39,837 nucleotides of DNA from a bacterium (GTDB taxonomy: Bacteria > Verrucomicrobiota > Verrucomicrobiia > Limisphaerales > UBA11358), in NCBI GenBank assembly GCA_021780375.1, contig JAJXYT010000084.1, positions 1 through 39,837 on the forward strand, given 5' to 3'. Position 1 is the stretch's first letter; each line of letters opens with the position of its first letter. Under the pieces are notes generated by a model that was not told where the DNA came from, made no database searches, and saw only the letters and a program-made list of their open reading frames with translations. The translations under genes were made by a program, and so were the position numbers. Below are positions 1 to 1,766 of this stretch, one piece after another.

Positions 1-1470
1 GCCCATCGAGCCCAGCCCGCCGCTGGTAATGAACTGGCGCGGGTGTTCATACTTGAACCACTGGCCGGCCCACATTTGATGCTGGCCCACGCCGGTGGTG
101 ATGAGGGCATCACCCTTGGTCAGTTCGTAGAGCGCCTCGACCACCATCTGTTGGAGGATAATCTGGTCTTGCTGGCCTTTAAGATGGTCCTTCATGTGAT
201 CGCTGGTGGCGATTTCATGCGTGATGGTGTAAGCGAACGGCGCCTTCTGTTTCCACTCGCCAATTTGCTCCAGCCAGGCCGTGTGTTTCTTGTTCAGCGG
301 GCGCTGAGCGAGCATGGCATTGAGCCGCACCAGCGCATCTTTGATGTCACCGACCACGGCCAGGTTGGCGCGGCGATTCTTGTTCAACTCGGATGCGTCA
401 ATGTCCACATGCACAATCGTGCCGTGCTTGCAGAATTCCTCGAACTTGCCGGTCACGCGGTCGTCGAACCGCACGCCGAACGCCAGCAGCAGATCCGCGC
501 CGTCCTTGAGCTTCACCATCGGATCGTTGAACGATTTGCGGTGCGCATATTCGCCGTTGACGGCCCAATTGGCAAACGCCGCGCCGTGCATGCCCAGCCA
601 GCGCAACGACAGCGGGTGCGTCTCGGGAAAACCGCCGATGCCCATGAGGGTGGTCGTGACCGGAATGTTCGTTGCCTCGGCGAATTTCTTGAGCTCCGCC
701 GCCGCGCCGCTGCTGATGATGCCGCCGCCGCAATAAATCACCGGGCGCTCGGCCTTCTCAATCAGGCCCATGATTTCGTTCAACGCCAGGTCGTCGGCGC
801 GCAAATCCGGCTGCGTGTAACCGGGCAGACCTTTTTTGATCTGCGCCAGCGTCGGCCATACCGGCTGGGTTTTGGCCTGCTGGATGTTTTTCGGCACGTC
901 AATCACCACCGGGCCGGGCCGGCCGGTTTGCGCGATATAAAACGCTTCCTTGATGATGCGCGGAATATCGTTCACGTCGGTGATGAGATAGCTGTGCTTC
1001 ACGATGGGCAGCGTCACGCCGATGATGTCGGTTTCCTGGAACGCGCCGCGACCGATCATGTTTTGATTGACCTGGCCGGTGATGGCGATGAGCGGGCAGG
1101 AATCCAGGTAGGCATCGGCAATGGCGGTGACCAGATTGGTCGCGCCGGGACCGCTGGTGCCCATGCACACGCCGGCCTTGCCGGTCGCCCGGCCGTAACC
1201 TTCCGCCGCGAAACTGCCGCCCTGCTCGTGCCGCGGCAGAATGGTGCGGATTTTGGATTTGGTCAGCGACTGGTGGATTTCCATGCTCGCGCCGCCGGGA
1301 TAGGCAAAAATGACCTCCACGCCCTCACGTTCAAGGGCTTCGACGAGGATGTCGCGGCCAAACATGGCCGCGCCGACCTCGGCGCGCGTGGCGGAGGCGG
1401 GTTTTTTTTCCAGTGGCGCCGAAGCCGCTTTGGCGGCGGCGGATCCAGCGATTTCAGTTGTTTTGCTCAT
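1..1470 (-). CDS. ilvB: acetolactate synthase large subunit, 3' end beyond left window edge
   Basis: Reverse-strand translation from ATG at 1470: [70 protein letters not shown]...[55 protein letters not shown]; ThDP-enzyme motifs typical of IlvB. Not in the ORF track because it runs off the edge. Confidence 0.95.
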   Translation of the reverse strand, partial: [490 protein letters not shown]

Positions 1471-1475
1471 AGGCT

Positions 1476-1572
1476 TTGGCGATCAAGAGTAAGATTATGA
1501 TTACGATTAAGAATCAGGCCGGAATTTTGACCCTTCTTAATCTTAATCTTTTTCTTAATCTTAATCATCGTA
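1476..1572. repeat. imperfect inverted repeat built of GATTAAG/CTTAATC-like units
   Basis: gagtaagattatgattacgattaagaa ... cttcttaatcttaatctttttcttaatcttaatcatcg between the attenuator and the ilvB start. Confidence 0.6.
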
Positions 1573-1604: not shown

Positions 1605-1636
1605 GAAAAACCCACGACCGTTTCCAGCCGTGGGTT
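1605..1636 (-). terminator. intrinsic terminator / attenuator between leader peptide and ilvB
   Basis: Minus strand AACCCACG-gctggaaacggt-CGTGGGTTTTT: 8-bp stem with T-run, 21 nt after the leader-peptide stop and upstream of the ilvB ATG. Confidence 0.8.
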
Positions 1637-1657
1637 CTTGTTAAAACTTGGTTGCGT

Positions 1658-1729
1658 TCAACAAGCGCCAACGGCGTCGGCGACTACGACGACGACCACA
1701 TTGACCACTTGCAGAACGTTTTTCAACAT
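1658..1729 (-). CDS. putative ilv leader peptide MLKNVLQVVNVVVVVVADAVGAC (23 aa, 10 Val, 2 Leu)
   Basis: ATG TTG AAA AAC GTT CTG CAA GTG GTC AAT GTG GTC GTC GTC GTA GTC GCC GAC GCC GTT GGC GCT TGT TGA read on the minus strand; six consecutive Val codons directly upstream of a terminator and ilvB. Confidence 0.82.
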   Translation of the reverse strand: MLKNVLQVVNVVVVVVADAVGAC

Positions 1730-1738
1730 TACCGGCTC

Positions 1739-1766
1739 AGTTTACAGGAGTTATCGGCAGAGTCAA
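1739..1766 (-). promoter_or_regulatory. putative sigma70-type promoter for the ilv leader
   Basis: Minus strand TTGACT (1766-1761) - 16 nt - TAAACT (1744-1739), about 9 nt before the leader ATG. Confidence 0.55.

Follow-up and report, generated by a model that had tools for sequence, protein, structure and literature searches.

A valine-rich leader and terminator as a very likely ribosome-mediated attenuator of ilvB in Limisphaerales

The window analyzed here, a stretch of 39,837 nucleotides, begins within the gene for the large subunit of acetolactate synthase, ilvB, which lies on the minus strand (1..1470, ATG at 1470) and has TIGR00118 as its best match (E=2e-152). The 3′ end of the gene is truncated by the contig edge. 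Upstream, also on the minus strand, are rplI, ssb, rpsF, pth, an L25-family gene and a prs-like gene, and a terminator-like site (1880-1856) separates the rplI-ssb-rpsF group from the ilvB promoter. Between this site and the gene, the minus strand carries in succession a promoter, a short leader open reading frame (ORF), an intrinsic terminator and a spacer of about 136 nt leading to ilvB. In the stretches read of three relatives (L036, L041 and L049), no ilvN-like ORF was found downstream of ilvB, which seems to be a single-gene unit there.

A first-pass annotation of this DNA had described a promoter, a valine-rich ORF of 23 codons and a terminator ahead of ilvB, and each of these is present. 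The sigma-70-like promoter, TTGACT-N16-TAAACT, is located at 1739..1766 on the minus strand and is conserved in relatives; a match of this type is expected by chance 0.3 times per 801 bp. The leader ORF on the same strand (ATG 1729, stop 1658) encodes MLKNVLQVVNVVVVVVADAVGAC, with Val at 10 of its 23 codons, including a run of six consecutive ones. No Val run of six in a short ORF arose in 5000 shuffles of the 437-nt region, and a short ORF with 10 Val codons was reached in two of the 5000. The leader is thus a short ORF rich in codons for a product of the pathway, as in attenuators of branched-chain amino acid (BCAA) genes, and one so short is easily overlooked in routine annotation. The intrinsic terminator, AACCCACGGCUG-GAAA-CGGUCGUGGGUU followed by a U-tract (1606..1636, minus strand), consists of a 12-bp stem closed by a GAAA loop and sits between the leader ORF and the structural gene, the place that a terminator occupies in an attenuator.

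This arrangement is shared across Limisphaerales, which the NCBI taxonomy ranks as an order within Verrucomicrobiia. The closest relatives of this ilvB come from Verrucomicrobiota metagenome-assembled genomes, several of them labelled Limisphaerales, Pedosphaera or subdivision 3. On the strength of these relatives, the window itself is assigned to an uncultured bacterium of this order. Among 80 fetched ilvB loci, three were cut too close to judge a leader; in 72 of the 77 judgeable relatives, counted by reading, a Val/Leu/Ile-rich short ORF followed by a terminator precedes ilvB, and the element stays before the gene although its distance from it varies. Comparison of homologous upstream regions had been proposed in the first-pass annotation, and the lack of such an ORF from related genomes, named there as evidence against attenuation, was not what the relatives displayed. 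Five relatives (L069, L088, L089, L106 and L114) have the same layout with few Val codons, possibly through decay or retuning of the sensor. Such leaders, for instance MSEAVQKAPVSVGGPEAAGGACRYA, retain the terminator and the RNA strand that overlaps the leader stop codon (strand 2, below). A covariance model was built from a set of 68 leaders that includes the window's own. It matches 263 of the order's 294 genomes; among those with completeness of 90% or more and contamination of 5% or less, the count is 150 of 154.

The leader also has an unusual start. TTGAC occupies the −35 place in 67 of the 68 leaders; in a control stretch it occurs in 3 of 66. In 64 of 68 the −10 box ends 6-12 nt ahead of the leader start codon. 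With the usual distance from the −10 box to the transcription start taken as 6-7 nt, this spacing leaves a 5′ untranslated part of about 0-6 nt, and transcription in the window is predicted to begin near 1732. No Shine-Dalgarno (SD)-like sequence was seen before any of the 68 leaders. A start codon so close to the −10 box and the lack of an SD sequence together suggest that the leader mRNA is probably near-leaderless. Since an SD-like sequence is rare before ilvB itself too (7/77), SD-free starts may be usual in these genomes. In some leaders, those of L051, L059 and L079, a further in-frame start codon lies upstream, which makes it uncertain where precisely these leaders begin.

The 136-nt leader RNA folds 4.8 standard deviations below dinucleotide shuffles and can be divided into three strands, all on the minus strand, and the terminator. 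Strand 1, CGUUCUGCAAGUGGUCAA (1701..1718), pairs with the 3′ part of strand 2 in the 1:2, or anti-antiterminator, hairpin, which belongs to the minimum free energy structure of the window. Strand 2, GCCGUUGGCGCUUGUUGAA (1657..1675; also written GCCGUUGG), lies in the last leader codons and the stop codon and forms the 5′ side of the antiterminator. Strand 3, UUUAACAAGAACCCACGGC (1627..1645), forms its 3′ side and holds most of the 5′ arm of the terminator. The antiterminator is a long helix of GCCGUUGGcgCUUGUUGAA (1675-1657) with UUUAACAAGaaCCCACGGC (1645-1627), and because it shares the 5′ arm of the terminator the two structures are mutually exclusive, as in known attenuators. Their energies in the window are close, at −19.9 kcal/mol for the antiterminator and −21.0 kcal/mol for the terminator. 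A different competitor, a small hairpin over the leader stop (CTTGTTG-aacg-CAACcAAG), had been named in the first-pass annotation. It can be written, but reaches only −3.3 kcal/mol and is conserved no better than shuffles; the long helix reaching the terminator's 5′ arm replaces it.

All three pairings can be followed in the relatives. The terminator is the most conserved part, with 98.8% of cells paired across 68 relatives. The antiterminator is paired in 87% of cells compared to 24-57% for slid controls, and 23 of its cells are compensatory against 10.4 from shuffles; at one pair, for example, 14 sequences have CG in place of UA. Related sequences may beat such shuffles without any structure, which is why the slid control matters too, and it agrees. 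In the 1:2 helix, 82% of cells keep the pairing of a conserved core, ACAAGY:RCUUGU, and support for the helix is weak in more distant relatives.

The leader bears a coding signature as well. Among 17 leaders of equal length that make up the near clade, pairwise diversity in the Val run rises from 0.04 at the first codon position to 0.12 at the second and 0.29 at the third, the pattern to be expected if the sequence is translated. At the C-terminal codons the corresponding values are 0.02, 0.02 and 0.20, and the residues they encode, DAVGAC, are conserved in the near clade. Distant relatives have other residues there (GTCRA, DGTCRNA) and largely keep the pairing, which points to an RNA role for the C-terminal codons.

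Folding of the growing transcript in silico, with all RNA as far as the ribosome kept from pairing, connects these structures to translation. When the ribosome is blocked at codons 9-14, the antiterminator is the best structure until the 3′ arm of the terminator has been made; at codon 16 it remains only in part, and with the ribosome at the stop codon no structure but the terminator is available. If no ribosome is present, the RNA folds into the 1:2 hairpin and the terminator. In this constrained folding, which structure wins depends on where the ribosome sits, over the Val codons or at the stop codon. At equilibrium, a leader RNA that includes the whole terminator favours that structure even with a stalled ribosome, so the model requires kinetic, cotranscriptional folding, on which attenuators in general depend.

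In all likelihood, then, a ribosome-mediated transcription attenuator at this locus responds chiefly to the level of charged tRNA-Val and less to that of tRNA-Leu, and ilvB is very probably the gene that it regulates. RNA polymerase would initiate a few bases ahead of the leader ATG, and a ribosome would load on the near-leaderless 5′ end. With ample Val-tRNA, it would proceed to the stop codon and cover strand 2, leaving strand 3 to pair with the 3′ arm of the terminator and transcription to end at about 1606. With scarce Val-tRNA, it would stall in the Val run, strand 2 would pair with strand 3, and the resulting antiterminator would block the terminator and allow ilvB to be transcribed. If the leader were not translated, the 1:2 hairpin would form and termination would be the default. 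This reading is built on anatomy, conservation, compensatory pairing, folding and the coding signature; from these we predict where transcription starts, that the leader is translated and that the gene responds to valine.

A second element in the same genome provides a counterpart. The ilvB model finds it at C118:46793-46919 (E=1.8e-4), where it encodes the Leu-rich peptide MNRHLNLNLLLNALRLCRAAVGF ahead of leuA, with energies of −18.9 kcal/mol for the antiterminator and −23.5 kcal/mol for the terminator. A Leu-rich leader in this layout is present at 26 of the 30 leuA loci of the family. Pairing of the leuA terminator reaches 97.2%, and in 10 of 24 sequences one of its AU pairs is replaced by CG; the antiterminator is 88.5% paired compared to 31-59% when slid, and because its covariation is not above that of shuffles, its support comes from position and not from compensation. 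The leader ends in AAVGF over the equivalent helix. At trpE and hisG in the family, Trp- or His-rich leaders were looked for and none was found. The leader codons therefore follow the pathway product, Leu at leuA and Val at ilvB, and no other observation speaks more strongly for codon sensing. Together with the order-wide conservation, the compensatory changes and the coding signature, the leuA leader lends strong support to the first-pass proposal that a Val-rich leader attenuates ilvB. Common to the ilvB and leuA elements are the C-terminal A-V-G codons and an ACCCAC terminator arm. Tentatively, both could descend from a single near-leaderless module that was duplicated and then, by codon changes, retuned from Val to Leu; on this view, ribosomes would initiate at the bare 5′ end in step with the polymerase. 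We place the chances of this scenario somewhat below even. The paired Val and Leu versions, with an SD-free and near-leaderless leader, offer a clean natural comparison.

Other explanations have been weighed against codon sensing. The terminator might act alone or with a small-molecule aptamer as a riboswitch, the Val-rich ORF being incidental; that the terminator is the best-conserved part, and that a few relatives retain it after losing most Val codons, would fit such a device. No covariance-model match to a T-box or other Rfam riboswitch was found for the window's element, however: no family reaches its gathering score, and relaxed E-values give only sub-threshold chance matches to unrelated families. 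Beyond the ORF there is no conserved aptamer-like region, and the coding-type variation of the Val run and the Leu-rich ORF at the equivalent position of leuA tie the codons to the pathway, making this account highly improbable. Equally, if not slightly more, improbable is that the leader is an arrest peptide whose nascent chain, ending in DAVGAC, stalls the ribosome irrespective of codon starvation. The near-clade conservation of these residues would suit it, but their codons encode antiterminator strand 2, the distant relatives change the residues while largely keeping the pairing, and the leuA leader has a different ending over the equivalent helix.

The leader and terminator might instead end a read-through transcript of the rplI-ssb-rpsF operon, which lies upstream on the same strand, and play no role in the control of ilvB. 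Against this, the upstream group has its own terminator-like site, the ilvB promoter lies downstream of that site and is conserved in nearly all relatives, and the element stays ahead of ilvB across the fetched loci despite the varying distance to the gene; this explanation is as remote as the arrest peptide. The codon-sensing attenuator is the reading retained here.

Leader-peptide attenuation is known in Proteobacteria, where the enteric ilvBN, ilvGMEDA and leuABCD operons follow the same logic, with Val/Leu-rich leaders at ilv and Leu-rich ones at leu. In the enteric systems the leader is preceded by a ribosome binding site and a longer 5′ untranslated region, and the sequences of these attenuators are unrelated to the verrucomicrobial element. 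Work on attenuation in Escherichia coli is cited in PMC10272879, and the mechanism is also known in Actinobacteria (PMC1262725; PMC10272879; PMC11857589; PMC13236596). For instance, the attenuator of Corynebacterium ilvBNC (the ilvB-II motif) resembles the present one in having a BCAA-rich short ORF, an antiterminator and a terminator before ilvB, and in that the terminator is its most conserved part. Its leader is made without a ribosome binding site (PMC10272879; Morbach 2000, as cited in PMC11857589). It differs in belonging to another phylum, in its peptide (MTIIRLVVVTARRLP) and RNA sequence, and in controlling ilvBNC, whereas the three relatives examined in this respect show no ilvN-like ORF after ilvB. 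Another example is ilvB1NC of Mycobacterium tuberculosis, which likewise has an upstream ORF (uORF) with regulatory BCAA codons; a ribosome at its stop codon masks the antiterminator and a stalled one permits it (PMC13236596). Its regulatory codons are LVVI without a Val run, its sequence is unrelated, and expression data exist for it. The ilvB-OMG and Leptospira ilvB motifs are further ilvB-associated RNAs proposed as uORF attenuators (PMC10272879); the verrucomicrobial element, in contrast, has no Rfam match. When candidate regulatory codons ahead of ilvB were altered in Streptomyces coelicolor, no effect was seen (PMC1262725), a result which demonstrates that anatomy alone is no proof of mechanism.

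No earlier description of such an attenuator in Verrucomicrobiota was found in the open-access papers searched, and an earlier notice in subscription literature is possible. The present element extends leader-peptide attenuation to an order of this phylum known largely from metagenomes, and gives a testable regulation of branched-chain amino acid synthesis in Limisphaerales. In a phylum-wide sample, 30 of 295 genomes match the covariance model at E 0.01, mostly weakly. Most matches outside the order look like generic terminators, the exceptions being L123 and L125, which precede ilvB. Among 40 upstream regions from other orders of Verrucomicrobiia, no convincing ilvB leader was found, and in other classes of the phylum Val/Ile/Leu-rich ilvB leaders with terminators are present in scattered genomes, namely L123, L125, G192, G119, G160 and G219. 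AVG-type C-termini are common to some of these outside-order leaders and may reflect shared origin or convergence on the same pairing.

Between the terminator and the ilvB start codon, the window also carries an imperfect palindromic repeat, GATTAAGATTAAGAAAAAG...CTTAATCGTAATCATAATC (1475..1568, minus strand). The repeat has partial copies elsewhere in the genome and is absent from most relatives; it was apparently inserted and is probably not part of the attenuator. Similar repeats occupy the site in L037, L040 and L057, and a different one (GGATGATTGGATG...) is found in L036 and L038. Repeats that differ or are absent among relatives suggest that the site is an insertion hot spot for REP-like elements.
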